The position numbers and the translations under genes are program-made. Of a stretch of 64,000 bases of DNA, positions 9,301 to 36,000 are shown one piece after another. A model generated the notes under the pieces. That model worked only from the letters and a program-made list of their open reading frames with translations, was not told the origin of the DNA and did not search any database. Position 1 is the stretch's first letter, and each line of letters opens with the position of its first letter. This stretch comes from Burhinus oedicnemus (lineage: Eukaryota; Chordata; Aves; Charadriiformes; Burhinidae), in contig VFFE01007068.1 of NCBI GenBank assembly GCA_008921705.1, positions 177,138-241,137 on the forward strand. Reading direction: 5' to 3'.

Positions 9301-12300
9301 CTGAACTGACATTGCTGGTTTCATTTAATCTAGGAAACTATATGCGGTTTGTGTGGGAACTATAATGGCAATATGAAGGATGATTTTGAAACTCGAAGCA
9401 AGTATGTGGCATCAAATGAATTGGAATTTGTCAATTCTTGGAAAGAGAATCCTCTGTGTGGGGATGTGTACTTTGTAGTGGATCCCTGTAGCAAGAACCC
9501 TTATCGTAAAGCATGGGCAGAAAAGACGTGTGCCATCATCAACAGCCAAGTCTTTTCTGCCTGTCACAATAAGGTAAGAATTGTTTCGGCTTTCTTTTTA
9601 TTTATAGGCACAATCTGTATTCTACCAAAATGTCCACACTCCAACACTTGATTATCTCTTCCCCAAAATGCTTTAATAATATATATAAAAAATGTTTTAT
9701 GGCTATGTTTTAATAAAATATATATAAAATGTTTTATGGCTCTCATGTATGTTAATCTTCATCCTCTATTATTTGCACTTCACCAGCCCTTTTGTAAGCC
9801 CAAAAGCTAAGTATGACATTAACTAGTTAGTTAAAAATATCAGAGTGAAAAAGTAACAGAAATTAGTCAGTCTATTGATGATACATGATACTGATCAATG
9901 CACTGTTTACTCTCTTGAAATCACTTAGCCTTTGTTAGAAAACCAAACTTAAGGAAAGCCTGAAAACACTTGTTCTTATCAGTAAATCAACAGTATTACT
10001 TAGAACATGCACATCAGCCCAAGAGCAAAGTATCATCAACCCCCTTATTTGTTTTAAATTACCCACTTTGTTGAAATGAAAATATCACAAGGTTCATCAC
10101 AACCAGGCCTTCTAAACAAAACCATCCATTTTCAGGAGGTGGAAACAAGTGAGAAATGTGGATAATGCTGCAGTGCTCATGCATGTCCATGGAAGGTGTA
10201 CAGCTGACAAACTTAGACACTTGTGCCTGAATGAATGTGGGGGTTTGCGTTTTTTTTTTAGCTGACTATACATAATATGTTCAGGACTAATATGAATTTA
10301 GAAATACGTATCTGGCTAAACATCATCAGTTTCTATTGTTGATGTGGAGACACATTCTTGCTAAGATTTGTATGAAGTAGGACTGCAATGGCTTTGACAA
10401 GTGTTCAGAGGAAGTACTAGTTACTCTCACTTAAAGGAACACGTATTGTTTAGCCCAGGGAAAAACACCTTCTTAACAAATAGGCACAAAAGAATCCTAG
10501 AAAATTCCTTACTTTGTTTTCCAATGCAGGTGAATCGTATGCCTTACTACGAGGCCTGTGTTCGAGACTCTTGTGGTTGTGACATTGGAGGGGACTGTGA
10601 ATGTATGTGTGATGCCATTGCAGTATATGCCATGGCATGCTTAGATAAAGGTATCTGCATTGACTGGAGGACCCCCGAGTTTTGTCGTAAGTTTCTTTAA
10701 GCTCTCTTTAAAAAGGTTTAAGAGATTATTATTGTTACTGTGAGTATTATTAATATAGCAACATAGGTAATTTCTTAATAAGCACCTCCTAAGTTGCATT
10801 TTCTTTATGGGCAAATAGTTGACTTCAGTCAGCTGAGTTCTGAAATCTGTAGTTTTCATTTATGCTAAATTAACCAAAATATTATATCTCTTTTTACCAT
10901 GGAGTAAGGAGAGAGAAAATAATGTGGTCACAGAAGGCAGACTGTTTCTTTTGCTGCCACTGTATAGTGAACTGTCAGTTTGTCAGCAGGAGTATGAAGC
11001 TGTAAAAAAATGTGTTTCATTTTAGCTATGATGAAATCACCTTCTGTGTGGATGTCAAGGAAATAAAGACAGCTGTGTTGGCTGGAACACTGTAAAACGG
11101 GAAAAAGATACCAAGGTGTTCCAGAGCACCATATATGGAAGAAAAAAGAAGATGAGTGTGTTATAAATCAATGCTAGAGTTGTCATCTTTGATGGCTTCT
11201 TTTCAATATTTGACTACATTATGCATTAAAAATTGTGGAAATGCCTGTGTAGTGCATTTGCAAAAAGGAAACTGACTTCACTGGAGAGTAGATTTCAATT
11301 TGCATCAGAAGCTAATAATTTCAGTGACAAAATTTTTGATTCAAACTGTTTATTAATTTTGTCTTCCCTTTAGTCCTTTGAAAATAACATGCCATTAATT
11401 TGAAAAATTCTGATTTCTCTCTTGCTTTTACCTTTTTTAGCTGTCTATTGTGAGTATTACAATTCTCATAAAAAACCAGGAAGTGATGATGCTTATTCCT
11501 ATGGCTACAACAATGACAACTGCACCTGGCATTACAGGCCTTGTAATTGTCCAAATCAAAACTACAAATATGTCAACATTGAAGGTAATAAACTATACTA
11601 GTGTAAACCAGGAAATAGTAACACAGTAGTTATTTTCAATGCTGTTTTTTAAATCAGTCATACCACAGTTAAATAATGGTATTCTAATTGAGCCTATTTT
11701 TCAAGCAGTTTTGCTTGCTACTACTGCTTTAAATACATAATCAATTCACTACCTGTACTACATCTAGCTTTATATTGAGCTCAGCTTATCTTGAGGAGAA
11801 ATTTTCTGACTTGCACCAAATCAAAAGAATACACTGTACTTAGGTAAGAAAACATGTGGAGAGAGCAGATAATATTCTTATTATAAAAATGGGAATAGTT
11901 GGAGAAACCAAAAAAATTACTACATAGGCAGACCCTTCTTCTGAGAATGACATTGGAAATGCTTACCTGAATAGATGTTGTTGCAATCGATACAATTTTT
12001 TAATAACAGAACTGTAAGATATTAGATTATAAATATTATAAATTAAATGCTGTTCTCTGAGAAATGTAAAAGAAACTTCTCTTCCCTTTTTTTCAGGCTG
12101 TTACAACTGCTCTCATGATGAATACTTTGACCATGAGAAAGAAAGATGCATGCCATGTGGTAAGCAGCAACATATATACTCATTCTCTTTCTCCACAGTA
12201 GCTGGAAAACAATACTAAAACATTTGTATGTTCTCAAATAAGGTATTTTTCCTAGTACATCTTAATTAATGGTGAAATACTGGAAGAGGTTGCCCAGAGA

Positions 12301-15300
12301 GGTGGTAGATGCCCCATCCCTGGGAACATTCAAGGTCAGGTTGGACGGGGCGCTGAGCAACCAGATCTAGTTGAAGGTGTTCCTGCTCATTGCAGGAGGG
12401 CTGGACAAGGTGACCTTTAAAGGTCCCTTCCAACCCAAACTATTTTATGATTCTATGATACTAATGAACGTTCATCCCAACTTCCTTCAAAATAACCCTA
12501 TTACTGTACTGCTAGTATGTAAAACTTCAGTTGATAAATAAAGGAACGAAAAAAACTAATTAAAAGAAGGATTAGGGTAGGGAATGCTATAATACAGAAG
12601 CTGGATGAACCTGACATTAGTTAGCAACATGAAAAGTTACGTTCATTGTAAATGTGAGTACTTTTCAAAATGTGGGTCTTCCTGAAAGCATATTGGTGTT
12701 CTGATCTGCGTGAGGGACTGACCCAGCAAAGCTATGGGTCTCAGATACATTCAACAGCTTTCACAAAAAAAGAGAACATACAAAATAGGATCAGACCTAG
12801 CTAATGGACTCTGCTTAGCAAATCTCTTTTTAGAGATTTTTTAAAACATTATTTTAACTTAAGGTTTATTACCATATGGTTTACTTCAATGAAAACCTCT
12901 TATTAAAGAATGTTTTGGATAGACTCTGTCTGCACAGTTTGGATTTTCATGCAGATGTAAAAAAAGTCAAGGACAATTTTTCTCATATTACAGAATTCTA
13001 ACCTGTGTAACCAGGTTCTCAGCTAGTGATCTACATTTACATCTGATTATGTGATTTACATACAAAAAAAAAATGTTTCCATTATCCCTGAAAAGTGGGG
13101 TGCCCTTAAGCATAAAAATCAAAAAGGTAGCAAAAACTTACTCCTGATTATTATTATTATTATTATTATTATGAGCTGTACTGATTGTCATTGTTTAAGT
13201 CCTTTGAGGTGAAGTTTATGACTGAAATATGTAATATTAAGCATTTTCAGGAATATCTCACTAATTAACACAAACCCTAGAATCCAATATGAAATTTGCC
13301 TTATTTGGAATATTTTAATATGCTTTCATTCACAAACGCAACCTGTTCTACCTTTACACAACAGGACACGAAAGCACTAGTACCACACCTGCAACGTCTT
13401 CACCTTCAACAGGTTAGTTTATGTAGTTGACCAAACTAGTACTTACACTCTGGTATATGTCCTGATATGTGTTTATGAGGTAAGCAATACCCTTTTTTGA
13501 AGTTTCAAATGCATAAGGTGCAATGATGAAAAATAACTTGGTATCATAATGATCACAAAAATTTTCCCAGAAATATTTGTTAGACATCTTAAGAAAAAAA
13601 ATTACTGAGAGAACAGTTTCCTGAGTGTACTTAGGCACTTCCAGATATCAGTAATGAAATATCTCCGTTAGTGAATAAATACTTCTGTCTTGTCTCTGAT
13701 GAACAGTGGGATCGAGCGCATCCTCAGCAAATTTGCAGGTGACACCAAGCTGAGTGGTGCAGTTGGCACACCTGAGGGATGGGATGCCATTCAGAGAGAC
13801 CTGGACAAGCTCAAGAAGTGGGTCTGTGTGAACCTCATGAGGTTCAAGAAGGCCAAGTGCAAGGGCCTCTTCCTGGGTCTGGGCAACCCCCGGTATGAAT
13901 ACAGGCTGGGGGACAAAGACTGAGGGCAGCCCTACCGAGAATGACTTGGGGGTACTGGTAGATGAAAAGTTGTACATGAGCCAGTAATGAGCACGAGCAG
14001 CCCAGAAAGCCAACTGTATCCTGGGCTGCATCAAAAGAAGCGTGGCCAGCAGGTCGAGGGAGATGATTCTGCCCTTCTACTCCGCTCTGGTGAGACCCTG
14101 ATACTACGTCCAGCTCTGGAGCCCTGAGCCCAGGAAACACGTGGACGTGTTGGAGCGGGGCCCAGAGAAGGGCCACAAAAATGATCAGAGGGCTGGAACA
14201 CCTCTCCTATGAGGAAAGGCTGAGAGCGTTGGGGTTGTTCAGCCTGGAGAAGAGAATACTCCAGGGAGATCTTATGGCGGCCTTCCAGTACGTAAAGGGG
14301 GCTTATAAGAAAGATGGGGACAGACTTTTTAGTAGTGCCTGTAGCGATAGGACGAGGTTTTAAATTAAGAGAGGGTAGATTTAGACTAGATACAAGGAAG
14401 AAATTTTTTGCGCTGAGGGTGGTGAAACACTGGAAGAAGTTGTCCAGAGGGGTGGTTGATGCCTCATCCCTGGAAACGTTCAAGGTCAGATTGGACAGGG
14501 CTCTGAGCAACCAGATCTAGTTGAAGATGTCCCTGCTTATTGCAGCAGCGTTGGGCTGGATGACCTTTAAAGGTCCCTTCCAACCCAAACCATTCTATGA
14601 TTCTATGATGTAAAAAATTCCTCAGAAATTGCATCACAGTTCTTAGTGGTGACTGGCCGTATAACACTTTGACAATTTAAGAAAGTCTTCTACAGCCTGA
14701 TCCAGGAAAGGAATCTATATATACTGATCTTAAATTTGTTAGAAATGGTATTGATTTTCCTGAAGATATATGGTATTGGGAAAATGTTACACTGTCAGCT
14801 GTGTGAATAATAAAATATAATTCCATCTCTGCTTCTATGCACAAGTATTTATGCCAAATTCACTTTAAAATGATGAAGAGAAATGTATAAAGCTTCTGTA
14901 AGAATTCCTGTTTAATGTATTCACTGCACATAACAGCAAAGGAGTAGATGGATAACTTCTGCCAAATGTTTCCTCTAAAAGGTAGTGGTTTTTAACAGTA
15001 GTTACTACTAATATTTATTAAGACAATGTTTTTACTTCAGAAAATAATTTTCAATTTATATAGGTATGTTATAAAGAGAATATCAGGAACTATTTCTTAT
15101 CCTTTGATTATTTTTTTTCTCTTATTAACAGCAGCGCAGCCTGAAGTAACGAGAACCTCTACCACAAGTACCCTACCAACAGTACCTAGTATTTCTTCTG
15201 CAGCTACTGTATCAACTGAAACTACAAATCCAACCGTAACCTCAAAAATCACAGTTCCAAGAACTTCATCAGCATCACTTCTTGTCACAATAAAGTCAAC

Positions 15301-18300
15301 AACTGGTAGGTTTTTAGTGTTACTAAAATAAATTATAGCAAACCCACTCTATGCATAGTTGAGATATCACTCTATTAAGAAAGCATTGCAAGCTGTCTCA
15401 ACACCCAAGAATAAGACTCCAAATCATGAATTAGGCAAAGCAGGCTTCCAGAAAGGAGTTTGTAAACCAGAAATGTTCGGAAGTATGGATCGAAAGTGCG
15501 TGGAAAGAGAAAAGATATAGACAGTAGCTTAAAAATACAACCAAAAATCACTTGTGTGACTCGTCTGAGAAGCACATTGGTTCTGTAAGTAGTGAGCGAG
15601 CTCAGCTCCAGTTGAATATAGTAGCTCAGCTTCAGCCTCTTTTCCACAACTGGTTCAGTTATGCAGTCATATTCAAGGAGCACCCAACATATTAATTCTG
15701 AATAATGTAGGCAGGCTCCAGAGTGGAATCACATGGGTATCAATGCAGTAGATTTGTCTAGGATTCTAGAGTCCTGCTCTCGGGAGGATGGCTCCTCCAA
15801 CATAAATCACTTTCTGATTCTATTGCTTGTGGAGACTCATAAAAACATGTAGCTTCCCACCAACATGCACTTCAACTAATAAGCCATCCTGGACCCAGGC
15901 TAATCAGGGAAAGCAAAGTTAAAAAGAGGTCCCACAGGAGTCAAAACACAACTTCAAAGGCTGCCATTGTGACAGATGATTTATGCACTGGAACAAGGGA
16001 AGTCCTATAGTATAATGTTATTTAGCTTTGTAATATGAATTACAGAAAGATGAATCTGTGGCTGATTTGGAATATAAGAATAGCCAATGAAATTGTCATT
16101 TGGGCAAAGTCTGTACAGACTTTAGCCAAAAAGTGACAACAAAGCTAACTTCTTAGAAAAATTATATAAAAAATAATCTAATACAGGAAAAATACAGAAA
16201 ATGAGAACAAAGACAGATATGAGACAATACAAAACAAATACGAGTAGAGAAAGATTTGGCAAGCTTATGAGAACATGAATACAAACAATTACACAGAAAA
16301 TATTCAAAAGATCAAGGGTGAAAATTAGGTCTCTGCAATATGGGTAGCTTCTTCATAATTTATCTATTTTTAATTATTCAATTAATTGATTACTCACAGT
16401 ATTTATTTACCTTTCCTCCAAAAGAACATACAACATCCATTTTTACCACACCAAACATGACTACAACCATCACTACACCTTCCATAACTACCTCAACAAA
16501 AAGAACCATGACCACGAAGCCAAAGCCTACACCTGTTGCCTCATCAACTGCTGCTTCAACAGAGACAGAAAAAGTAAAGTTCACCATACCACCCTTCAAG
16601 ACCACTACCAAAAAGGAAACAACAACCACCTCAATACTTACTCAAACGACGTCTCAGATCACAACTTTCAGCAAGCCTAAACTAACAACAGTAGGTAAAT
16701 ATCACTTTTTGATGTCCGCCGTATGAAGCCATCACTCACAAGACATATGTCAATGTATTCCTTATAAAAAACCAAGCATTCTTACTAGGTGTCTTAACAC
16801 TGCAAATAGATAGGAAAGGACATGGATAACTAAAGAAGCATGATAAAAATGGAAATGTATGCGTCTTGCCAATGGAGCAAGCATCTGACATCCAAATGCC
16901 ATCTTAAACCTAACATTTCTCTTTGAGGCCATACTATACACTTACCTCAAATTCAGGCAAAAACTATGCTTCAACGTGAGTTCTTGAAAATTCACAGATG
17001 GCAGAATATGTGTCCCGCCTAGCCATTGTAACAAATTCTCCCAAAAATAAATATTGAAAAAAGGAAATTACACTTCAGGATGGCAGGTACTCCATATGCC
17101 AACAAGGACAGTCTCCTCCGAGGCTGTATGACAATGTGAATTGTTAGGTCAGCAACTGACATCAAAGGGTGTCGGTGTGTGGGAGGAAGTCTACTGTAGT
17201 GAGAGGGCAGGCTCTCTCCCAATCCATACGTCTCCCACAAAGTACTGTTGGGGTGTACACATCTGGGTCTTCCTGTGACAGCGAACACAGCTTCCTCTGA
17301 GTAAGTATTACCACCCACTTTAACTAGGAACCTTACCAGCTCCCAAGCATTACTGATATCCATTACAGAGAGTGAGGGAACCCAAGCAACCACTCAGCAC
17401 CGCCAAGTCCCAGTAGGTGAGTAAAAGGGAGCTGAGAGATTGCCTTGGCCTAAGACTCTGCTTCACTTACCCCAGCTCACCAGGATGATGTTCTTCCCCA
17501 GTCTGGAACAGCTTGGAGGGGAGTCATGCACACCCAAAGAGCTGCTTGTTCCCTCAGGAGCTCCAGAAGAGGCAGGGGGTGCTGAATTGTCAGAGGGCAC
17601 ACTTCAGGTGCCATTCTTGCCCCATATTTTTGGGGGGGAGGGAGCCATTGGCCCATTTCTCCCACTTGCCCAGTCAGACTCAGTGGGGTCTGGTCCTGCC
17701 TTTCTTGCCTGCATCCATACCCTGGGGCTTCTGCCTGGGAATTGCCCACCTCCTTTGCCTTCCCCTGGCACCCTCAATCAACGTGGGCTTTTCTCTCTGT
17801 AGTTGTCACCCACAGAAGACCAACATCACCACATGTTGTGCAGCATCTGGTGACGCAGAAGACCACCCCTGCCATGTCCACCAGCAGCACCTCTGGCCTG
17901 AGAGAGGCCAGCCCTGCCAGCAGCCCAGAAGTTCCACTGACAAGGATGTCTCCAAGCCCCAGCATTTTACCTGACACCTCAGCCTCAACTGCTTCTTCCC
18001 CCTCCTCAACTGTGTCCTCAACACAGTTGAGACCATCACATCCTGGTAAGGCTCCCTCCTGCCCTTCCTGCTGCTCTGCCTGCTACTTCCAGCTCCCAGC
18101 ATTCTCTCCTAAGCAGCACGTCCTACAAAGGATTCAGTTTTGGTATTCATTCTTAATTCCCACTGCCCTTGCCATGGGAATCCTGGGGCCCAGGCAGGTC
18201 CTGGGACATGACCCTGCACATGAATGACCCTGACTGCATCCTCCTCCCTTGCCACTTCAGGGGTTTAGCTCTGGGGCACAGGCCTTTATTAGGGTAAAGA

Positions 18301-21300
18301 CATTTGTGACTTCCTGCCCCACAGCTAACAATCAGAAACAAGCTAACACATGCTCCCTCCCTTTACAGTGGTGCCCTGAGAATGCACAGTCTGGGGAACA
18401 TAAGGCAGTGAAATGGAAACCTGGCCCTAGTTTACACCTCAGGACAGTTTGGGGTGAGAGAAAGGACTCAAGGCATGCTCTCCATCCAATGGATGCCCAG
18501 GCCCTGGCACACCCATTACAATGTTGGTCAACAAATGCTACCTCCTTGACCAATGCTGACCCCGGGTGGAAAAGAGACACCAGTGGAGGGTGGGCAAAAA
18601 GCTGTACACTCAACTCCAGGCTAAAATTCTCCCACTTAGACCCATAGGTCTCCACATGCCTGGGTTGTCTTGCTGTTGAACAGGACAGGCTACTTTGAGG
18701 AGATACCACAACATGCTTTGCCTAGAATCCTTCCCAAGACTCAACCACTCTTTTCTCTCGTCCCTTTCTTTGTAGCAAGGGAGCCAACCAGAGCTAAGAC
18801 TCCAACTAGTAAAGTAGTAACAGGTGAGTGCTCTGGTCAGGAGAGAGCTAAGAGTCATCCATGGCCTATGCCTGTCCCTTCAATAGCCTCAGCTCTCCCA
18901 TGGACATTTTCCAGCACAGTCTGCAGCAGACAAATGGTAGATTACCTGTCAACCACTGGAATTGCACATGAAAGTAGCGGTACAACTCTTACCCTCTGAG
19001 GAGCACAAGGAGGAAGGAGATAAATTGCTAGAGGACATCCTTAACAACCATCACCAGCCTGCAATTCTCAGAAGCAGCAGGATGGGATACGACATGCTGG
19101 GTGTCACGGTCCCATTCATTCATCTTTAAAGCAACCAGATTTACGAAACTCAGTCCTGCCTTACTTCTCTATAAAGTTTCTAAACCCAGCAGTGCCAACA
19201 TAACTCACCTTTAAAGCTTAATTGGCGATCCTCACCGGAATTGTACTTTCCTCCTGACAGCCTTCACCCACGAAAAGACAACCGTGCCACACATTGTGCC
19301 GCCTCTGACCACGCAGAAGACCACCGCCACCACCTCTGCCAGCAGCACCTCCAAGACCTCTGTCTCCAGAGAGGCCAGGCCCGCTAGCAGCACAGAAGTC
19401 CCTCTGACAGGGACCTCTGCAAGTCCCAGCTCTCTGCCTGCTCCCAGCCGCCCGCTCAGCACCCGGCTGCCACCTGCCACCACTTCCACAGTCTCCTCCA
19501 CATCTATCCCCAAACCTACGCCTACAAGCCTTAGGCCCAGGCTCTCTTCGACGACGACGAGTGCTCCAAAAGAGTCGCCTGCATCCGAGTCCTCCGCACC
19601 CTCCACAGCCAGAACCAGCCCGCTGCCATCGCCTGCTTCTTCTCCCTCCTCAACTGTGTCTTCAACATGGCGGAGTTCCTCACAGCCCGGTAAGGCTCCT
19701 CCTGCCCATTCCACGGCTCTGCCTGCTCTTCCCAGCTCTCATTCTGCCTTCTTTCCTTCCTCCTTCCTTGCTAGCAGTGCACAGTGCTTGGGCTGTTGTT
19801 TTAGTGCTTGCCCTCCATTCCCACTTCCTTTGGCATCGTCACTTTGGTATGGCCTGCCCTCTGGTGTGGCCCTGGGCGCAGGTCTCTCCCACGCAGCCTT
19901 GCCTGCTAGTCTGGGAAGGGGCAGATGGTATGCTGTGCCTCTTCCTTGGAGGGAGACAAGCCTATCTGCAGAGGCTTCTGTTCCAGGGAGAGGCAGAGGG
20001 TGCTTGCGTGTTGGACGGCACCCTTCAGGTGCTGTCCTTGCCAGATGCTGTCCTTGTCCCCCTTTTTGTGGGACAAGCCAGACGGGGAGGCTAGGGGAAG
20101 GGCCAGAGGCCCACTCCTCTGTCTTGCCAAGCAAGACGCAGTGCTGCAACACGCTGCCTTTCTTGCACATGCCCCTGCGTCACGGTTTAGCGCCAGCTGG
20201 CAACTAGGACCATGCCGCCCCTCGCTCACTCCTCCCACAGCAGGATGAGAGAGAGAATCAGAAGGGTAAAAGTGAGAAAACCCCTGGGGTGAGATAAAAA
20301 CAGTTTAATAAGTAAAGCAAAAGCCGCGCACGCAAGCCAAGCAAAACAAGGAATTCATTCGCTAATTCCCGTTGGCAGGCAGGCATTCAGCCGTCTCCAG
20401 GAAAAGCAGTGCTCCATCAAGCGTAATGGTAACTCGGGAAGACCAACGCCACAACTCCAAATGTCTCCCGCTCCTTCTCCTTCCCCCAGCTTTATGTACT
20501 GAGCATGACGTCATGTGGCATAGAATACTCCTTTGGTCAGTCGGGGTCAGCTGTCCTGGCTTTGTCTCCTCCCAGCTTTCTGTGCGCTCCCACCCTGCTC
20601 AGTGGTGGGGCGGTGTGAGGAGCAGAAAAGGCCTTGACTGCTCAGCCACAACCAAATCAATCAGTGTCTTACCAGCACTGTTTTCGTCACAAACCCAACA
20701 CATGGCACTATACAAGCTGCTAGCAAGAAAGTCAACTCTGTCCCAGCTGAAACCATGACACCCCGGACCAGGGATTCTGGCCACCTCCTTTGCCTTTCCC
20801 TCTTGACCTCATCCTCAGTTGACCTCCGATTTCCTGCCAGCAGGCTCCACCCACGAAAAGACAACCGTGCCACACATTGTGCCGCCTCTGACCACGCAGA
20901 AGACCACCGCCACCACCTCTGCCAGCAGCACCTCCAAGCCCTCTGTCTCCAGAGAGGCCAGGCCCGCTAGCAGCACAGAAGTCCCTCTGACAGGGACCTC
21001 TGCAAGTCCCAGCTCTCTGCCTGCTCCCAGCCGCCCGCTCAGCACCCGGCTGCCACCTGCCACCACTTCCACAGTCTCCTCCACATCTATCCCCAAACCT
21101 ACGCCTACAAGCCTTAGGCCCAGGCTCTCTTCGACGACGACGAGTGCTCCAAAAGAGTCGCCTGCATCCGAGTCCTCCGCACCCTCCACAGCCAGAACCA
21201 GCCCGCTGCCATCGCCTGCTTCTTCTCCCTCCTCAACTGTGTCTTCAACATGGCGGAGTTCCTCACAGCCCGGTAAGGCTCCTCCTGCCCATTCCACGGC

Positions 21301-24300
21301 TCTGCCTGCTCTTCCCAGCTCTCATTCTGCCTTCTTTCCTTCCTCCTTCCTTGCTAGCAGTGCACAGTGCTTGGGCTGTTGTTTTAGTGCTTGCCCTCCG
21401 TTCCCACTTCCTTTGGCATCGTCACTTTGGTATGGCCTGCCCTCTGGTGTGGCCCTGGGCGCAGGTCTCTCCCACGCAGCCTTGCCTGCTAGTCTGGGAA
21501 GGGGCAGATGGTATGCTGTGCCTCTTCCTTGGAGGGAGACAAGCCTATCTGCAGAGGCTTCTGTTCCAGGGAGAGGCAGAGGGTGCTTGCGTGTTGGACG
21601 GCACCCTTCAGGTGCTGTCCTTGCCAGATGCTGTCCTTGTCCCCCTTTTTGTGGGACAAGCCAGACGGGGAGGCTAGGGGAAGGGCCAGAGGCCCACTCC
21701 TCTGTCTTGCCAAGCAAGACGCAGTGCTGCAACACGCTGCCTTTCTTGCACATGCCCCTGCGTCACGGTTTAGCGCCAGCTGGCAACTAGGACCATGCAG
21801 CCCCTCGCTCACTCCTCCCACAGCAGGATGAGAGAGAGAATCAGAAGGGTAAAAGTGAGAAAACCCCTGGGGTGAGATAAAAACAGTTTAATAAGTAAAG
21901 CAAAAGCCGCGCACGCAAGCCAAGCAAAACAAGGAATTCATTCGCTAATTCCCGTTGGCAGGCAGGCATTCAGCCGTCTCCAGGAAAAGCAGTGCTCCAT
22001 CAAGCGTAATGGTAACTCGGGAAGACCAACGCCACAACTCCAAATGTCTCCCGCTCCTTCTCCTTCCCCCAGCTTTATGTACTGAGCATGACGTCATGTG
22101 GCATAGAATACTCCTTTGGTCAGTCGGGGTCAGCTGTCCTGGCTTTGTCTCCTCCCAGCTTTCTGTGCGCTCCCACCCTGCTCAGTGGTGGGGCGGTGTG
22201 AGGAGCAGAAAAGGCCTTGACTGCTCAGCCACAACCAAATCAATCAGTGTCTTACCAGCACTGTTTTCGTCACAAACCCAACACATGGCACTATACAAGC
22301 TGCTAGCAAGAAAGTCAACTCTGTCCCAGCTGAAACCATGACACCCCGGACCGGGGATTCTGGCCACCTCCTTTGCCTTTCCCTCTTGACCTCATCCTCA
22401 GTTGACCTCCGATTTCCTGCCAGCAGGCTCCACCCACGAAAAGACAACCGTGCCACACATTGTGCCGCCTCTGACCACGCAGAAGACCACCGCCACCACC
22501 TCTGCCAGCAGCACCTCCAAGACCTCTGTCTCCAGAGAGGCCAGGCCCGCTAGCAGCACAGAAGTCCCTCTGACAGGGACCTCTGCAAGTCCCAGCTCTC
22601 TGCCTGCTCCCAGCCGCCCGCTCAGCACCCGGCTGCCACCTGCCACCACTTCCACAGTCTCCTCCACATCTATCCCCAAACCTACGCCTACAAGCCTTAG
22701 GCCCAGGCTCTCTTCGACGACGACGAGTGCTCCAAAAGAGTCGCCTGCATCCGAGTCCTCCGCACCCTCCACAGCCAGAACCAGCCCGCTGCCATCGCCT
22801 GCTTCTTCTCCCTCCTCAACTGTGTCTTCAACATGGCGGAGTTCCTCACAGCCCGGTAAGGCTCCTCCTGCCCATTCCACGGCTCTGCCTGCTCTTCCCA
22901 GCTCTCATTCTGCCTTCTTTCCTTCCTCCTTCCTTGCTAGCAGTGCACAGTGCTTGGGCTGTTGTTTTAGTGCTTGCCCTCCGTTCCCACTTCCTTTGGC
23001 ATCGTCACTTTGGTATGGCCTGCCCTCTGGTGTGGCCCTGGGCGCAGGTCTCTCCCACGCAGCCTTGCCTGCTAGTCTGGGAAGGGGCAGATGGTATGCT
23101 GTGCCTCTTCCTTGGAGGGAGACAAGCCTATCTGCAGAGGCTTCTGTTCCAGGGAGAGGCAGAGGGTGCTTGCGTGTTGGACGGCACCCTTCAGGTGCTG
23201 TCCTTGCCAGATGCTGTCCTTGTCCCCCTTTTTGTGGGACAAGCCAGACGGGGAGGCTAGGGGAAGGGCCAGAGGCCCACTCCTCTGTCTTGCCAAGCAA
23301 GACGCAGTGCTGCAACACGCTGCCTTTCTTGCACATGCCCTCTGCCTGGGACTTTTGGCCACCTCCTTTGCCTTTCCCTCTTGACCTCATCCTCAGTTGA
23401 TCTCTGCTTTCCTGCTGGCAGCCTTCACCCAGAAAAAGACAACCGTGCCACACATTGTGCCGCCTCTGACCACACAGAAGACCACCGCCACCACCTCTGC
23501 CAGCAGCACCTCCAAGACCTCTGTCTCCAGAGAGGCCAGCTCCTCTAGCAGCACAGAAGTCCCTCTGAGAAGGACTTCTGCAGGTCCCAGCTCTCCGCCT
23601 GCTCCCAGCCACTTGTTCAGCACACGCCTGCCACCTGCCACCACTTCTACATTGTCTTCTGCTTTGGTCCCAACTGCCAGCCCAGTGCCTACAACCCTCA
23701 GTACTTCCATATTTAGGTCTGCTGAAAGTACTACGTATTTTCCCTCTCAAAACACCACATTTAGTCCACATGGCAAAACGTCTTCTTCAGTAATTCCTAC
23801 CAGTATCTCTGCCAAGTCCACTTCAGTTTTTATCCCAAGTGTTTTATCTACAATTACTTTTGCTCCCAGCGTTATTACTACTGCTTCTACAGAGTCAGTT
23901 GAATGGACTTCTTTGCGAACAACAACATTAACCACTACCCGCACTACGTCATCTCCTTCTTTCACCCCTAGACTTTCAACATCCTTGTCTTCTGTTGTAC
24001 CTTTAACAGTGCCACAAGGTAAAGTACATTCATATCATTTCCTCTACCATGCTTTTGTTTTTAGCACATCTTTTCTGTCATGCATATATTAATTCTTACA
24101 TTACATATTAATTGTCTAGGATACCATTTGTATGTATGGGCTCCATCTTTTCTTTTTGTCCTTTCTGCAGCTATTTTTTGTGGAGTACTTGTCTCAAGTC
24201 TTTGATTTCATAACAACATATTCCCTGCAATATACTGATATAAACATTAAAAAGTGTGAGTTAAGGAGGCTGAAATTATGCATATCAGGAGAGTCACAGA

Positions 24301-27300: not shown

Positions 27301-29919
27301 TCCCACCATGATGTCTGCCTTGTTGGCCCTCCCCCTGATTCTTACCCCTAGACACTGAACCCTATTGTCACCATCATTTAGTTCTAGACACTCATAACAC
27401 TCCCTAACATACAGGGCCACCCCACCACCTCTCCTTCCTTGCCTATCCCTTCTGAAGAATTTATAGCCATCCATTGCTGCACTCCAGTCATGCGAGTCAT
27501 CCCACCACCTTTCCGTGATGGCAACTACATCATAGTTTTCCTGCTGCACAATGGCTTCCAGCTCCTCCTGTTTGTTGCCCATGCTGCGTGCGTTAGCGTA
27601 GAAGCATTGTTCATAGTTAGTGTAGTACTTTCAATCTGTGAATGGAAGGCAGATTTCCTGTGTGGTTCTTTTTTGTGTTTATTTCTTTTAACTACTGTTT
27701 GAGGACCCAGATAAGAGTTAACATTTCAATTTCAGCTACTTTCCTATTGCCTTCTCCACTGTCATATACCACTTCCACTGTTTGTTCTCCTTTTCTGTGT
27801 GTTTAATTCCTAAAGAAAGTGCAACCTCACCTCCAACAAGTTACAACCTTCTCTTTTTCAAGAATTGGGAGGGATATGCAGTGTCCTAATAGGCCTGCCC
27901 TTTTATACCCTACTTAATAATGAAAGTATTTACATCTTTTTGTCTTTGAAGCACGTGTTCAAAACTTTTCCAGACCTATATGCTATTTCCTTAGTTGTTG
28001 TGAATCTTCACACAAAGTCCTCCATTCCGTTGTTACAATCAGATGAACTGAACCAGAAACTTATCTCTAACAGCAACAAAAATGAACAAAGTGGAACACC
28101 ATGCTGAAGTCATCCAAGACATCACCTACTGAGTCTTACTCCAGAAGACTGATTTACACAAATTGTCCTAAATAACAACTAAGGAAACTGCATTTGCTAG
28201 TACTAGTACTCTCTAATGGTGATATGAGAATCAGTACATAACAGTGGATATAGTCACCTGTAGAAGAACCTTTCATCTCTGTTTTCACTGTTAACCTTGT
28301 CAGCAGAGCGCAGCTCATACAGGTCAGTCAGCTCAGACAGAAGGCATGGCAGAATTATCTGCCTGCAGAGCAAGCGATTAAATGCATAGTCTGTCCTTTG
28401 TCCCACTGTTACACAGGTGATGCAGTACCAGAGAGACTGGTTTCAGTTTTTTTACCAGAAAGGAGGCTCAAATTGACTATGTGAGCATTGGGAAATTACT
28501 TTGACCCAAGGAGATGGGATTCTTTCTATTGCCCCATTCCCTTTGACCCTGCTTTCCCTGCATCCTCATACTTTTCACCTCACAGAATGGGAATCCAAGT
28601 AGGAACTCTCATCAGCAAAAGAATTTTTCCCCAGTATAAATAAGGGTTTGGTGCCTGCTTTAGATTTTGTTCACATTCCTTTCCTAAGAGAAGTGCTTCA
28701 GAACAGTATCTTCCCATACTATTAGTGGCTTTGTTCCTTGCAGTTAACAGACAGTACCTCCCAGTATTTATTTCAGGAGTTCCGAAAGTTGCAAACAAGT
28801 TCTTCTCCTTTCTCTGCAAGCAATTCCGGTACTTTTCAGTCTTGCAGAATATTAACAATACCTTTCAGTCCAGAAAGAAAAGTTAAATACTGGCCTAGCT
28901 CCTAGCTCTTAATTTATGAGATACAGGTATAGTACCTTAGTCTAGTGTCCAGTTACTAACTGTCTGATTGTCCAATGACAAATTCCCAAATTCCTGCTAC
29001 AGTATTAAGTGAGCCTTCCCCACAACAATGTTCAGGTTTCATTCATAACCTTTCTTCAAGCAGGGAACCTGAATGTGCTCAGAAGTGCATTGTACAGAAG
29101 CAGTGCAAGAGGTGCATAAATTGCGTTCACAGTATTGAACATCTTTGTTCTCCTCAATATAAACTCCAAACACAGTCTTCAAACTCCTTGGAAAACCTGT
29201 GTTTTCAGTCAGCTTTTTGCTTCATAAAGTGCTTATTGTCTTGCTTCAGGTCAGGAGAAAATGCAAGATGAATACATATAATCACTACCTGCTATGTAGC
29301 ATTACCTATTCCATCTAGTAAGGAAAGACAGACTTTGGGCAGGCATTTCAGTTGTGAACTTCTGGATACCTGCAGATAAATAAATCCTTAAAATGGCTAA
29401 ATTAAACATTTTTCAAATAAGTAAAATCTATTACAAAGTCTGTGAACCAGAAATAATTCCACCAGAATTAGCCAGTTGGTTGTTTTATTTGCATCTTTGT
29501 GTTCTCATCAGTGGATTAGAGTTTTTTTCCTCCTGGACTGAATTTGCACTGTTTTCTTAACATGAATTTTTTTTCCCTCATTTATAATTCCAGTGACTTG
29601 CATTTTTTAGTTGTCCTCCAGGGTAACTATCTCATGCATCTTCAGTGCCTAGTTTAAAACCTCTTGCCGCATTACTCACTTGTGCCTTGTTGTCTCACGC
29701 AATAGGAATGGTTTTCCATGAAACACAGTAATGGAGGCTTTTGGCATCCAGCAAAGGTCACTCAAGATGACTACGATAGATTTCTGCTATAATTTTTTTC
29801 TTTTTATATTTGACAGAGCGTTGTAGAGAACTCGAATATGAAGAAAAAATAACTTACAAAGGGTGTTCTACAAATGTCACTTTAAGCAGATGTGAAGGAT
29901 CATGTCCATCTTCAACACA
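254..29919 (+). CDS. MUC6: Gel-forming mucin MUC6 (beta-ovomucin type), spliced, 5' end outside window
   Basis: Secreted gel-forming mucin; in birds MUC6 is the beta subunit of ovomucin and in vertebrates generally a gastric and glandular mucus polymer. I joined 23 exons with GT-AG sites and matching phases: C8 and TIL of D2 (254-2305), a linker (3431-3483), D' TIL (3589-4631), D3 VWD (5369-9573), D3 C8 and TIL-like tail (9334-12159), nine PTS exons (13365-24018) and a CTCK exon (29817-29919). D3 carries the CGLC motif typical of mucin D assemblies, implicated in disulphide-linked oligomerisation. The PTS region is about 890 residues without cysteine. All PTS exons start and end in phase 1, so skipping or duplicating one keeps the frame. 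MUC6 is preferred over MUC2/5AC/5B because no CysD, VWD4 or VWC is seen and AP2A2 is the convergent neighbour. The promoter, signal peptide and D1 lie to the left of the window. Confidence 0.9.
820..950 (-). mobile_element. CR1 LINE 3' fragment
   Basis: Contains the reverse complement of the CR1 tail (AATCATAGAATCATTTAGG) followed by the diagnostic GTCGAGTCCAACC. About 130 bp, strongly truncated, inside the intron of D2 C8. Confidence 0.75.
1010..1142 (+). CDS. MUC6: MUC6 exon: C8 of D2, second part
   Basis: Begins [11 protein letters not shown] and ends NSMDNC. Cysteine spacing is that of the second half of C8. Acceptor TTTCAG, donor A|GTAAGT, ends in phase 1. Confidence 0.88.
2056..2305 (+). 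CDS. MUC6: MUC6 exon: TIL module of D2
   Basis: Begins [10 protein letters not shown] and contains [10 protein letters not shown] and [10 protein letters not shown], a trypsin-inhibitor-like cysteine-rich module that follows C8 in mucin and VWF D assemblies. Acceptor TTTTACAG, donor TG|GTAAG (phase 2). Confidence 0.92.
2362..2986 (-). mobile_element. Old solo LTR of an endogenous retrovirus
   Basis: Related over most of its length to the 585-bp LTRs at 20176 and 21759: shared blocks include GACAGTTTAATAACTT, CTGAGCATGATG and GGTCAGCTGTTCTGGCT. On the - strand it starts TGTACTG. Much more diverged than those copies, so an older insertion. No internal viral genes are present. The left end is approximate. 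Confidence 0.75.
3431..3483 (+). CDS. MUC6: MUC6 exon: short linker after D2 TIL
   Basis: A 53-nt exon reading [19 protein letters not shown] when joined to its neighbours. Acceptor TTTCCCCTAG, donor CAG|GTATGG. Phases 2 in and 1 out agree on both sides. Confidence 0.85.
3589..3698 (+). CDS. MUC6: MUC6 exon: D' TIL, first part
   Basis: Reads [12 protein letters not shown] and [14 protein letters not shown], the first half of the D' TIL module. Acceptor TTTTTCCTAG, donor TGT|GTAAGT. Confidence 0.9.
4480..4631 (+). CDS. MUC6: MUC6 exon: D' TIL, second part
   Basis: Reads [16 protein letters not shown] then [18 protein letters not shown]. It closes the D' TIL and starts the stretch leading to VWD3. 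Donor TG|GTAAG, phase 2. Confidence 0.92.
5369..5510 (+). CDS. MUC6: MUC6 exon: start of VWD3
   Basis: After a short cysteine-rich lead it reads [20 protein letters not shown], the classic opening of a von Willebrand D domain. Acceptor ATTCCCAG, donor ATG|GTAATC. Confidence 0.93.
5989..6099 (+). CDS. MUC6: MUC6 exon: VWD3, second part
   Basis: Begins [19 protein letters not shown] and ends ISIYLG. It continues VWD3 in phase 0 on both sides. Acceptor CTTTTTAG, donor GGG|GTAAG. Confidence 0.92.
7147..8590 (-). mobile_element. CR1 LINE, 5'-truncated, reverse-transcriptase remnant
   Basis: The 3' tail (reverse complement of ATTCTATGATTCTATG) is at 7147-7180. Going up in coordinate on the - strand come the CR1 3' conserved region and broken reverse-transcriptase frames, including [27 protein letters not shown] and ADDTKLSG. 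Several frameshifts, so not active. It lies in the intron between MUC6 VWD3 exons. A near-identical copy in the opposite orientation is at 13697-14610. Confidence 0.92.
8690..8875 (+). CDS. MUC6: MUC6 exon: VWD3, third part
   Basis: A 62-codon phase-0 exon starting [15 protein letters not shown]. It lies directly after the CR1 insertion that enlarged the preceding intron. Acceptor TTATTCCAG, donor CAG|GTATTG. Confidence 0.92.
9334..9573 (+). CDS. MUC6: MUC6 exon: end of VWD3 (CGLC motif) and start of C8-3
   Basis: Begins [18 protein letters not shown], with the CGLC motif and the calcium-site-like GNYNG loop of D domains, then enters C8 of D3 ([17 protein letters not shown]). 80 codons, phase 0 at both ends. 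Confidence 0.95.
10530..10686 (+). CDS. MUC6: MUC6 exon: C8 of D3
   Basis: Begins [17 protein letters not shown] and contains [16 protein letters not shown], the second half of C8 in D3. Acceptor CCAATGCAG, donor C|GTAAGT (phase 1). Confidence 0.94.
11441..11584 (+). CDS. MUC6: MUC6 exon: end of D3 (TIL-like)
   Basis: Reads [20 protein letters not shown] and later [13 protein letters not shown], the segment that follows C8-3 in gel-forming mucins. Phase 1 at both ends. Confidence 0.9.
12097..12159 (+). CDS. MUC6: MUC6 exon: last cysteine-rich exon before the mucin domain
   Basis: A 63-nt exon, [20 protein letters not shown] and a final Cys, phase 1 at both ends. It ends the cysteine-rich N-terminal half. 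Confidence 0.88.
12270..12460 (+). mobile_element. CR1 LINE 3' fragment
   Basis: About 190 bp of CR1 tail ending CAACCCAAACTATTTTATG then ATTCTATGATA. + strand, 5'-truncated, in the intron between the last cysteine-rich exon and the first PTS exon. Confidence 0.9.
13145..13175. repeat. ATT trinucleotide microsatellite
   Basis: A short run of about eight ATT units in the intron before PTS exon 1. Confidence 0.8.
13365..13412 (+). CDS. MUC6: MUC6 PTS exon 1 (48 nt)
   Basis: Reads [16 protein letters not shown], 16 codons, phase 1-1, of almost pure Ser/Thr/Pro. Acceptor ACAACAG, donor CAG|GTTAGT. First O-glycosylation-type exon. Confidence 0.8.
13697..14610 (+). mobile_element. CR1 LINE, 5'-truncated
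   Basis: Reads from a reverse-transcriptase remnant ([19 protein letters not shown]) to the CR1 tail ATTCTATGATTCTATGATG. The derived peptides [18 protein letters not shown] and [18 protein letters not shown] are identical to those of the 7147-8590 element, so both belong to the same young subfamily. Confidence 0.93.
15132..15305 (+). CDS. MUC6: MUC6 PTS exon 2
   Basis: 58 codons starting [20 protein letters not shown], rich in Thr/Ser, no cysteine, phase 1-1. The acceptor is a NAGNAG pair (AACAGCAG), so one residue may be optionally lost. Confidence 0.82.
16425..16694 (+). CDS. MUC6: MUC6 PTS exon 3
   Basis: 90 codons starting [20 protein letters not shown], Thr-rich with several Lys, phase 1-1. 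Not repetitive with the exons further right. Acceptor TCCAAAAG is purine-rich near the cut, so the start is slightly less certain. Confidence 0.78.
17510..18230 (+). repeat. Diverged outer copy of the PTS exon-intron unit
   Basis: The intron before PTS exon 4 shares blocks with the array intron (CACTTCAGGTGCC; TGCCCACCTCCTTTGCCTTCC). The intron after it resembles the start of the array intron (GGTAAGGCTCC and TGCCCTTCCTGCTGCTCTG). An older copy of the same exon-plus-flanks unit. Confidence 0.65.
17803..18045 (+). CDS. MUC6: MUC6 PTS exon 4, diverged copy of the array exon
   Basis: 81 codons in phase 1-1. It aligns with the 143-codon array exons at both ends ([16 protein letters not shown] near the start; [11 protein letters not shown] near the end) but lacks about 60 central codons. 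Its flanking introns are also recognisably related to the array introns. Confidence 0.8.
18776..18823 (+). CDS. MUC6: MUC6 PTS exon 5 (48 nt)
   Basis: A 16-codon phase 1-1 exon reading [16 protein letters not shown], the same size as PTS exon 1. Acceptor TTTCTTTGTAG, donor CAG|GTGAGT. Real by splice sites and phase, but short enough to be doubtful without RNA data. Confidence 0.6.
19261..19689 (+). CDS. MUC6: MUC6 PTS exon 6 (array unit 1)
   Basis: 143 codons, phase 1-1. It reads [20 protein letters not shown] and continues Ser/Thr/Pro-rich with no cysteine to SSSQP before G|GTAAGG. Near-identical to the exons at 20844 and 22427. The frame stays open through the donor for about 500 nt into the intron. 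Confidence 0.85.
20176..20760 (-). mobile_element. Solo LTR of an endogenous retrovirus (copy in unit 1)
   Basis: 585 bp. On the - strand it starts TGTCATGGTTTCAGCTGGG and ends GTGACGCA, giving TG...CA termini. It is flanked by CCCC on both sides, a likely short target duplication. An ACATAAAGC TATA-like box and a TATTAAACTG stretch lie in the expected order. Antisense to MUC6. No gag/pol/env sequence. Confidence 0.88.
20844..21272 (+). CDS. MUC6: MUC6 PTS exon 7 (array unit 2)
   Basis: Same 143 codons as unit 1 apart from the first residues (GST for FT-type start) and one Thr-to-Pro change at 20939. The acceptor is a NAGNAG (CCAGCAG). Phase 1-1. Confidence 0.85.
21759..22343 (-). mobile_element. 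Solo LTR (copy in unit 2)
   Basis: Same element, same flanks and same position in the intron as the unit-1 copy. It arose by tandem duplication, not by a second insertion. Confidence 0.9.
22427..22855 (+). CDS. MUC6: MUC6 PTS exon 8 (array unit 3)
   Basis: Third near-identical 143-codon exon, with the same NAGNAG acceptor as unit 2 and Thr (not Pro) at the position that differs in unit 2. Phase 1-1. The intron after it lacks the LTR. Confidence 0.85.
22427..23421 (+). repeat. Tandem unit 3 (995 bp): PTS exon and intron, no LTR
   Basis: Matches units 1 and 2 up to GCACATGCCC, where they carry the LTR. It then runs on through a slightly diverged intron end to the next exon. Represents the empty site. 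Confidence 0.9.
23422..24018 (+). CDS. MUC6: MUC6 PTS exon 9, long last mucin exon
   Basis: 199 codons, phase 1-1. The first ~75 codons match the array exon ([20 protein letters not shown] again). The rest is a different Thr/Ser-rich stretch with Phe and Ile (for example [18 protein letters not shown]). It ends CAA G|GTAAAG, which joins in frame to the cystine-knot exon. Confidence 0.85.
24019..29816 (+). other. Last long MUC6 intron (PTS exon 9 to CTCK)
   Basis: Holds the CR1 at 24836-27615. Outside it I see no exon that joins in frame on both sides. Two weak candidates are discussed under findings (28990-29270) and rejected items (27736). The flanking exons splice directly in phase 1. Confidence 0.6.
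24836..27615 (-). mobile_element. CR1 LINE, 2.8 kb, endonuclease and reverse transcriptase, frameshifted
   Basis: The 3' tail is at 24836. Above it on the - strand come the 3' conserved region, a reverse-transcriptase frame at 25354-26388 (344 codons, with [16 protein letters not shown] and FADDTKLG), a short broken frame at 26400-26696, and an AP-type endonuclease frame at 26863-27582 ([24 protein letters not shown]). Frames change between blocks, so the ORF2 protein is broken. 5'-truncated. A different subfamily from the 7147/13697 pair. It lies between the last PTS exon and the knot exon. Confidence 0.95.
29817..29919 (+). CDS. MUC6: MUC6 exon: C-terminal cystine knot, first part
   Basis: Joined in phase 1 it reads [20 protein letters not shown] then [14 protein letters not shown], the first half of a CTCK domain, which in gel-forming mucins forms the dimer in the ER. 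Acceptor TATATTTGACAG, donor CA|GTAAGG (phase 2). The remaining knot cysteines must come from one or more later exons. Confidence 0.92.
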
Positions 29920-33047: not shown

Positions 33048-36000
33048 CTGAAAAAGAACATAAAATACAATTTACTTTGTAAACACAGTTTGGCACTAAA
33101 TGAACACACGTTCAACTAGTGAAAGCTAGCAGTTACCTCTTATTCTTTTCCTAGATTTGGTAGGAAAAAGACCTCAAGTTAAAACACTCAGAGGCAGCCA
33201 GCCACTGAGTAATACAGCTTTTTTAAACCATAGGCTAGAGTACATCTTCAAGCCCTTGTTGAGAGTTACCATTGTGCTAATATTTTTAAGCTTTAACAGC
33301 AAGGTGTTGTCCAAAGCTTTTCTTTAAGAGGAGTAAATGCTGTGTGGAAAAGTCTAAAGACTCTCCACCACCACTTCTTCAGAAAACAGGAGACTTACCA
33401 CCCAAAACTTATTTTTAGTCCTCAGTTAGCTTTGATAAAACATTTATCAAAATGCTTGAGGGAAAATACTCTTAACATTGTGTTCATTTTCTTTTTTCTC
33501 TTTTAGCCAATCATTCTTTTATTAATTTAAAATGGCAAAGGGAATTATACTTAATCTTGTCCAATGTGCACAAAACAAACATTAAACGTTTCCAGCTTTC
33601 GAGAAGATGAGACTCCAATGGACAGTCCGCAATAATACAGTTATCTCTTCCAACAGGAAAAAGAATTGCTATGAAGCAGCAGCTTACCAAACTGGGCCAG
33701 GACCAGCTGCTACAATTTCATTTCTTGTTGGAGTCTATGGTCACAATTAGCTATTGCTATAGTGATTTTTAATTAAAAACTTTAAGGCGTTCCAAATACA
33801 GAGAGATATTTAGTGCAAACAATAACTTGTATTCAAGCTGTAAATACTTAAACAGATACCTGAGCCTGGAGGTTGGGTTCAAGGCGCAGCAAGCATCCAA
33901 TCTGAGTAGTTTTTGTATGTATGATACCAGCACCAACAAAGTTAGCAGGATTGGGATCAACCTCCTCAAGTAGGGCTGATCCAAAGCCAATTATCTATGA
34001 AAGAAACCCAGAAGATTTAGATGTGGGGACAGCAGGACACCAATACCAAGTCTACCCAAGCACAGCCACCACCAACTAGCAAAACAAGTAAGAGTAATTT
34101 TTATTTGAAGTGTTCAAGACATTAAAGAATTATCCAATAGCAATTTTATTACAAGAAATTTTTGAAGTGACAGAGTGACCCTGATAATGAGCTGTTCCTG
34201 AAAAAAAGAAGTTCTTCTCAAAAATAACTGAGAAATAAATTAGATTCAACATAAGTATCTCCTGTTTTTGATAAAGCCATTCCTGTCTTACACTAGTCAC
34301 TTCTGTTTTGCCTAAGGCAGCCAGTTCTACAAAAGTCACTTGTTTTCTTTTGTAACTGGTAACTCTAGCATAAATTAAGGCATGAAGTATCTTCCAGTTC
34401 AGTTTTAAGCAGCGAATTGGTGTTTTCTTAAATAGCTTCAAGTTTCCAGCTACTACTGAAGACTATATCTAAATTCAAGCCACACTGAGAAACAGTCCAT
34501 TCAACGCAGCACTGCCAAGGGTCTGTTACACAATATGGACTTACACTTTAAGAGGATGATTCAACTGCCATATAAACCAAGATGAACGAAGTTTGCTTAC
34601 ACCACTACGCTTACACTACAAATTAAAAGGACCACACTAGCACCCACCTTTGCTTTTGTGATCTCTGCATCCATTGGGTGTTTTGCTTTAAAGATATTCT
34701 GTACTTCTTGTTTTGGACTGCAAGACAAGGCAAGATGAATACATAGTATAACACATGTATTATGTACAGCATTGTTCAATAGCAACTAATTATACTGGGA
34801 TAGTTTATAACTCAGAGGATTAAGTATGGGATGGGGCACTGCACCAGCTACATTCACAATATACCCCGCCCCCCCCCCCCCCCCCGACCACCACAAGAAC
34901 CCCAGGCCCAAGCATACACAAATTCTTACTTGCTCAGTTGCTTCCAACGCTGAAAGAAGTCTTGAGAAGACATTTCTGTCGGCTGGAAAAATTTATTCAG
35001 TGTGATGGGTAATTTTACCGAAAGATTTTGAAACGTTCCACCATACCTGCATATGGAATAGAAAGAACACAGTGTATGCAGCACCGTGTCAGCAGTCTCT
35101 CAGCCTAAATCAACCAAGCAGTTGAGGATGAATAGCAAGATGCAATTGTTTACAGTTAAAATCCATCAACTGCAGATAAATGTCATCTCTAAAGACACAG
35201 TTTTAATCCACTGTTAAATATATTTATTTGCTCTGCTTAGGTGGCACATGAAAGTGAATTGACAGAACTTCTAATAAGGATCTCTCAGTTTCAGCATAGG
35301 TTGTTGTCCTTCCAGATAGCACCCATCAAAGGAGTGAAAATACATCACTGAAAACACACCAGTAAGAATCAGTTTAGACTAGAATAACAGAATGTAGCCC
35401 AGAAATCAGGATTTCCCAAAGGCTGATGTTGACTGGACATAACAAGATTCTATTTTTGGCTGCATGCATTTCCAGTCCAAGTTGTTTGCAGGAATGTTCT
35501 TGGTTTCCAGAAGGGAGAAGTTACTGTGTATATTCCTGTCACGATTTCTTAAGCAAACAGGAAGACTGTTTTATACATGCAGCAGAAAGAGAAGCCACGG
35601 AGACATTATATCAGCAGCTGCTTCTTAATTAGGTGGATTTTTTCGTTGTTGTTTTGTTTTATTTTTTTTTAAGCCACATTGTTCCAAGTGGATTCCCTAC
35701 CTCCCCTCATAGCTTAAAGCTTTGTTAGATTAATTTTTCAAGTAAGTTGTCTACCCAAGACAGCTTTGTGTGTGCATATTCTACAAATTTGCCCTGGTCT
35801 TCTGACTGAATTAACATCTTTCATCTAATTAATTCACTAGTATTTGAATCCTGTGTTTTACCTGAATTGAATGTTCAGGATTGGAGCTTCCATGAAGTCT
35901 GACACGCATTCGATGTTCACAACCTGTTGAACCTGTGCACCTCCATCCACTGTGGGGTCAACAGGTTTTGTCTGAAGATTCAGGCATAAGAAGTGATTAA

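Follow-up and report, generated by a model that had tools for sequence, protein, structure and literature searches.

The window analysed here, 64,000 nucleotides of a Burhinus oedicnemus genome assembly (GCA_008921705.1, contig VFFE01007068.1, positions 177,138 to 241,137 of the forward strand), carries on its plus strand a gene that we assign by sequence similarity to avian MUC6 (ovomucin beta), a gel-forming mucin. The O-glycosylated domain of MUC6 is very probably encoded by an array of homologous exons that is old in birds, and whose core modules are homogenised within species while the modules at its ends escape. In this B. oedicnemus assembly, three near-identical core modules are flanked by one diverged module on the 5′ side and another on the 3′ side, the latter joining a cystine-knot exon.

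Direct repeats lie at positions 19228, 20811, 22394 and 23389 of the window, which corresponds to spacings of 1583, 1583 and 995 bp. The first three repeats contain the core module exons U1 (19261..19689), U2 (20844..21272) and U3 (22427..22855), each 429 bp or 143 codons long, of symmetric phase 1-1 and flanked by splice sites with AG at the acceptor and GT at the donor; here and below, all exons of MUC6 are on the plus strand. Over 910 bp, U1 and U2 differ at two positions, and U3 differs from each of them at one. A further difference between U1 and U2 is found within the 588 bp of a long terminal repeat (LTR)-like insert and another in the 81 bp to its right, giving a total of 4 differences in 1,579 bp. 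Repeats of kilobase size with more than 99% identity are beyond chance. Upstream of the core lies U0 (17803..18045, 81 codons), which is 70% identical to the first module of black-headed gull MUC6 and 69-79% identical to the core unit over the matched pieces. Between U0 and the core lies a 48-bp exon (18776..18823) that was recognised by its splice sites and a match to gull residues 1359-1381. Downstream, the terminal module exon U4 (23422..24018, 199 codons) shows 81% identity to the gull terminal module. Its first part is about 90% identical to the core (22 differences to U3 in 235 bp) and the remainder is not homologous to it. The window thus holds one repeat per exon, with all exons compatible in phase. 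This bears out the initial annotation, which had described three 143-codon exons at 1,583-bp spacing with a few base differences per unit, a 995-bp unit lacking the LTR, a diverged unit on each side, and a mucin domain growing by symmetric phase 1-1 exons together with their introns.

The LTR-like insert, whose minus-strand orientation and kind were judged from its ends, is present in the intron between U1 and U2 (20175..20762) and again, with 99.8% identity, in the intron following U2 (21758..22345), and is missing from the U3 intron; the U3 unit therefore measures 995 bp rather than 1,583 bp. Within 37 bp at the acceptor, U1 and U2 differ at 15 positions and U2 and U3 at none. At the insertion site, too, the identity ends sharply, and from there to the following exon U3 shares about 90% identity with U1 and U2. 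Because of these sharp breaks at the acceptor and the insertion site, U2 in this assembly is a mosaic of a U3 head and a U1 tail with the LTR-like insert. A single unequal crossover in a two-unit ancestor, composed of U1 with and U3 without the insert, would yield exactly this mosaic. A relative of the insert (71-74% identity) is located in an upstream intron of MUC6 at 2397-2981.

To identify the gene, an 80-residue stretch of the exon at 9334..9571, which encodes the end of a VWD domain (Pfam) and the start of a C8 domain within the D3 region, was used as query, and the best 120 of 125 matches were considered. Among these, 105 were named mucin-6 or MUC6, eight carried no such name and seven were named mucin-2, namely six rodent entries and one from a snake, which ranked last. 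The top 42 were all from birds (95-99% identity), and 39 of them were named mucin-6 or MUC6 and none mucin-2. MUC2, first suggested as identity by the best match to a solved structure, was dropped after this search favoured MUC6. Pfam matches between 1 and 10.7 kb follow the order C8, TIL, VWD and C8, all 5′ of the proline-, threonine- and serine-rich (PTS) domain. A tblastn search with black-headed gull MUC6 revealed exons collinear with the window, through the array (including U1) up to the first cystine-knot exon (29817..29919; 97% identity over 35 residues). Summed over 14 matched exons, the gull protein was the nearest, though narrowly, with 1739 bits compared to 1731 for goshawk and 1726 for crane. 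The terminal G of U4 at its GT donor and the AG that opens the cystine-knot exon would form an in-frame glutamate codon, as in the gull protein. MUC6 is defined by the lack of a CysD domain, its PTS domain being directly followed by the cystine knot. Pfam scans of three plus-strand frames from 24 to 64 kb gave no match, neither to CysD nor to the cystine-knot exon that lies in this range.

To follow the module across birds, the core module was embedded in a longer frame and searched as part of it, and the 7965 candidates sharing most words with it were scored (E ≤ 0.001). The 142-residue module queried alone gave no match at E ≤ 0.01, since only proteins of similar length were candidates in that search. 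All 59 proteins matched by the core module were from birds, 54 of them named mucin-6 or MUC6. A hidden Markov model (HMM), which replaced a strict motif count, detected the module in 31 of 32 bird MUC6 proteins picked by the D3 exon (one per species; Zosterops had none) and in none of 78 non-avian relatives picked in the same way (mostly mammals, few reptiles and one amphibian; no crocodile was included). Judged by these proteins, the module is a bird feature. Counting was based on 49 of 61 bird proteins, one per species, the other 12 being additional isoforms or second models. Excluding the last module, we counted nine full core modules in pigeon, eight in zebra finch, seven in Prinia, six in chicken, five each in gull, goshawk and crane, and four each in condor and macaw. 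Three crows differed among themselves, with 5 in cornix, 7 in moneduloides and 10 in hawaiiensis. Since MUC6 proteins across birds, including tinamou and chicken, contain several copies, the multiplication is not new in B. oedicnemus and only the last homogenisation is. The multiplication had initially been described as very recent; this is right for the identity of the copies and their last turnover, and wrong for their origin, as the array is old across birds.

Next, we compared modules within and between species in a panel of 13 named birds plus the window, chosen from the 49 to represent one species per family. We treated the last module of every array separately and compared only modules covering the whole profile. 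Identity of core modules was 0.926 within species (n = 197) and 0.698 between species (n = 2504). For all 74 core modules the nearest neighbour belonged to the same species, compared to a mean of 3.3 and a maximum of 12 of 74 in 500 label shuffles. Core modules were monophyletic in 13 of 14 species; the exception was Pithys, in which the protein ends in a core module. Terminal modules behaved differently, as 11 of 13 were closer to the terminal module of another species than to their own core, and the 12 other than that of Pithys formed one group in the tree. Core modules being nearest within their own species and terminal modules across species, the core has turned over together and the ends have not. 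Judging from these protein sequences, the array is old in birds and its core homogenised within species, which is the pattern of concerted evolution, with exceptions.

These exceptions, together with the nature of the data, count against our interpretation. The crow clade had a support of 0.0, and in an unselected set of 156 modules, including close relatives and terminal modules, the proportion with the nearest neighbour in their own species dropped to 121 of 150. Two terminal modules did not follow the rule, that of Pithys (a truncated protein with a core module in last position) and that of tinamou (0.57 to its own core and 0.54 to another terminal module), and two followed it narrowly (chicken, 0.59 versus 0.58; goshawk, 0.74 versus 0.72). 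Full core modules are few in ptarmigan (3), Pyrgilauda (2) and falcon (1), and Zosterops has none. The counts for other birds rely on database protein models that are mostly automatic and in several cases partial, and the arrangement of one exon per module was read directly in this window alone, the other birds being known from proteins. Moreover, amplification of one ancestral core exon independently in each lineage would give much the same pattern, species-specific clades of core modules included. We consider this unlikely as a replacement for an inherited and homogenised array, since the presence of several copies in each of tinamou, chicken, pigeon, raptors, parrots and songbirds would require repeated independent origins, and since chicken core pairs with identities down to 0.66 indicate that not all copies are new. 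The differing counts in the three crows suggest a turnover so fast that the two explanations merge.

Another explanation, improbable but slightly less so than independent amplification, is that U2 represents a duplication of assembly or haplotype origin, in which case U1 and the LTR-less U3 would be the two core units of the true haplotypes. The junctions U1-U2 and U2-U3 are identical in sequence, so that a two-unit array would already hold every unique junction, and the 4 differences in 1,579 bp between U1 and U2 could reflect ordinary heterozygosity. The mosaic structure of U2 does not decide the question, because two-unit alleles could differ. Against a false duplication stand the 5 to 10 core modules in the models of gull, goshawk, crane, pigeon, zebra finch and crow, although the same errors are possible there, and the result of a search of the B. 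oedicnemus assembly (1.17 Gb, 1504 contigs) with the U1 exon, which yielded at least six matches, all at the MUC6 locus and none elsewhere. Less probable still is a decay of MUC6 in this bird, with the extra exons unused. It would be in line with the missing last exon of the cystine knot (about 57 codons in gull), which was not found on either strand of the window between 29920 and 64000; its absence may be due to a deletion, to assembly loss or to a far-off position of the exon. Decay is hard to reconcile with 16 gull-aligned stretches outside the core array that contain no stop codon (59-100% identity, the lowest values including intron), with the predicted in-frame splicing of U4 to the cystine-knot exon at 29817, and with the open frames and splice sites of the core exons.

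As the exons are symmetric (phase 1-1), any gain or loss of a unit preserves the reading frame, and each unit adds 143 residues. If the array is inherited and homogenised, as we propose, unequal crossing-over together with gene conversion would keep the core uniform in each species while the end modules escape. In B. oedicnemus, all three core copies are presumably spliced in, for which the protein models of other birds give indirect support. The 142 full codons of the core module encode 38 serines, 28 threonines and 23 prolines and no cysteine, hence 66 residues of serine or threonine. Additional units would probably lengthen the O-glycosylated part of each MUC6 monomer and hence add sugar to the gel polymer. 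The chances are about even that MUC6 length in birds is a germline variable number tandem repeat (VNTR) of exons, with alleles that differ by whole exon-plus-intron units (here 1.0-1.6 kb and 143 residues) and additional exon skipping, so that the length of the egg-white and stomach mucin would vary within species and turn over fast among congeners. Whole-module differences exist among the automatic models of zebra finch and likewise among those of Hawaiian crow. Two sets of zebra finch models have no identical core module in common; the sets may come from different assemblies, and the hint at copy-number variation that they give is suggestive only. Models of zebra finch (8) and Hawaiian crow (2) have A or AA as the linker joining core modules. 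This is compatible with a tandem acceptor at a phase 1-1 junction, and the acceptors of U2 and U3 are tandem in the window as well (cagcag). Core exons have a GC content of 62%, whereas two other MUC6 exons and a candidate exon have 41-42%. At third codon positions, GC is 0.63 in the core, compared to 0.54 in U0, 0.38 in the candidate and 0.28 in U4 beyond its first part. Introns included, the array forms a local GC island (18000-24000; 0.54-0.57 versus 0.35-0.47 in other 2-kb steps). GC-biased gene conversion would fit as the source of this excess.

The initial annotation had contrasted this growth by exon duplication with the usual expansion inside one giant exon. Such growth is seen here, but it is not unique, as the accessible portions of the reports cited in this paragraph indicate. 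The PTS domain of chicken MUC13 consists of many exons with one near-identical repeat each, and control of its length by splicing has been proposed (Lang 2006, PMC1552070). It shares the exon-per-repeat mucin domain with the bird MUC6 array, but MUC13 is a transmembrane protein with at least 12 repeats of 20 residues, whereas MUC6 is gel-forming with modules of 143 residues. Chicken MUC2, which is gel-forming and belongs to the same gene cluster as MUC6, has a multi-exon repeat region as well, with 69-residue repeats over exons 32-45, repeated elements in the intervening genomic DNA and an in-frame splice variant (PMC3549977). It is a different gene with a different repeat, and CysD domains separate its repeat blocks; no mention of homogenisation was found in the accessible portion of that report. 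The human ortholog likewise has a mucin domain of variable repeat number (PMC9712336, PMC6269512), but it is a single large exon, for which 27 repeats were given in the genome examined (PMC9712336), instead of an exon array as in B. oedicnemus. A human mucin preprint from 2026 states that all canonical mucins carry their repeats in a large exon, and describes arrays whose edges are more degenerate for about half of the mucins, human MUC6 not being on that list (PMC13345508). Literature searches, which mostly did not cover subscription journals, returned no published description of exon modules in bird MUC6. The exon-per-repeat kind was hence already known; new are its member in MUC6, the record of concerted evolution across birds and the readable recombination history. 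The repeat unit of LPA kringle IV type 2 is likewise an exon plus intron. This 5.6-kb VNTR, with 1-40 units per allele (PMC6314250, PMC11462820), is similar as a large coding unit that varies in number between alleles, and different in encoding a folded kringle and not a mucin domain.

Repeats inside one exon retain less history than repeats spread over exons. In bird MUC6, each crossing-over is marked by introns, splice sites and the LTR-like insert, so that the evolution of mucin length becomes unusually readable. The gene offers an alternative to repeats in a single large exon, and its introns contain an insertion of a kind that can be dated. For egg quality, coding indels of chicken MUC6 have already been proposed as candidates, according to the accessible part of the report (PMC4136736). 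The number of units could serve as a genotypable variable for the egg-white gel and the mucus barrier in poultry and wild birds.

Two further exons with approximate bounds precede the array, a first short PTS exon (13366..13413; 94% identity over 16 residues to gull MUC6 1196-1211) and a longer PTS exon (15131..15305; 79% to gull 1212-1272). A threonine-rich open stretch of about 90 residues with a GT donor (16400-16695) lacks a close counterpart in gull MUC6 as modelled and is possibly an exon not modelled there. Beyond MUC6, Pfam matches to Alpha_adaptin_C and Alpha_adaptinC2 were obtained in one of two minus-strand frames scanned between 29 and 44 kb and mark alpha-adaptin exons at 33857..35980; the two genes are therefore arranged tail-to-tail. 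We take this neighbour to be AP2A2-like; AP2A2 adjoins MUC6 in mammals. An Rfam scan detected nothing. Introns of MUC6 further contain two repeat copies in opposite orientation with near-identical translations (7253-8369 and 13648-14516), which lie about 5 kb apart, flank the D3 exons and are presumably CR1-like. Such an opposed pair is a possible substrate for inversion. Finally, a tandem array of 39 TTTTC copies is located at 6-212.

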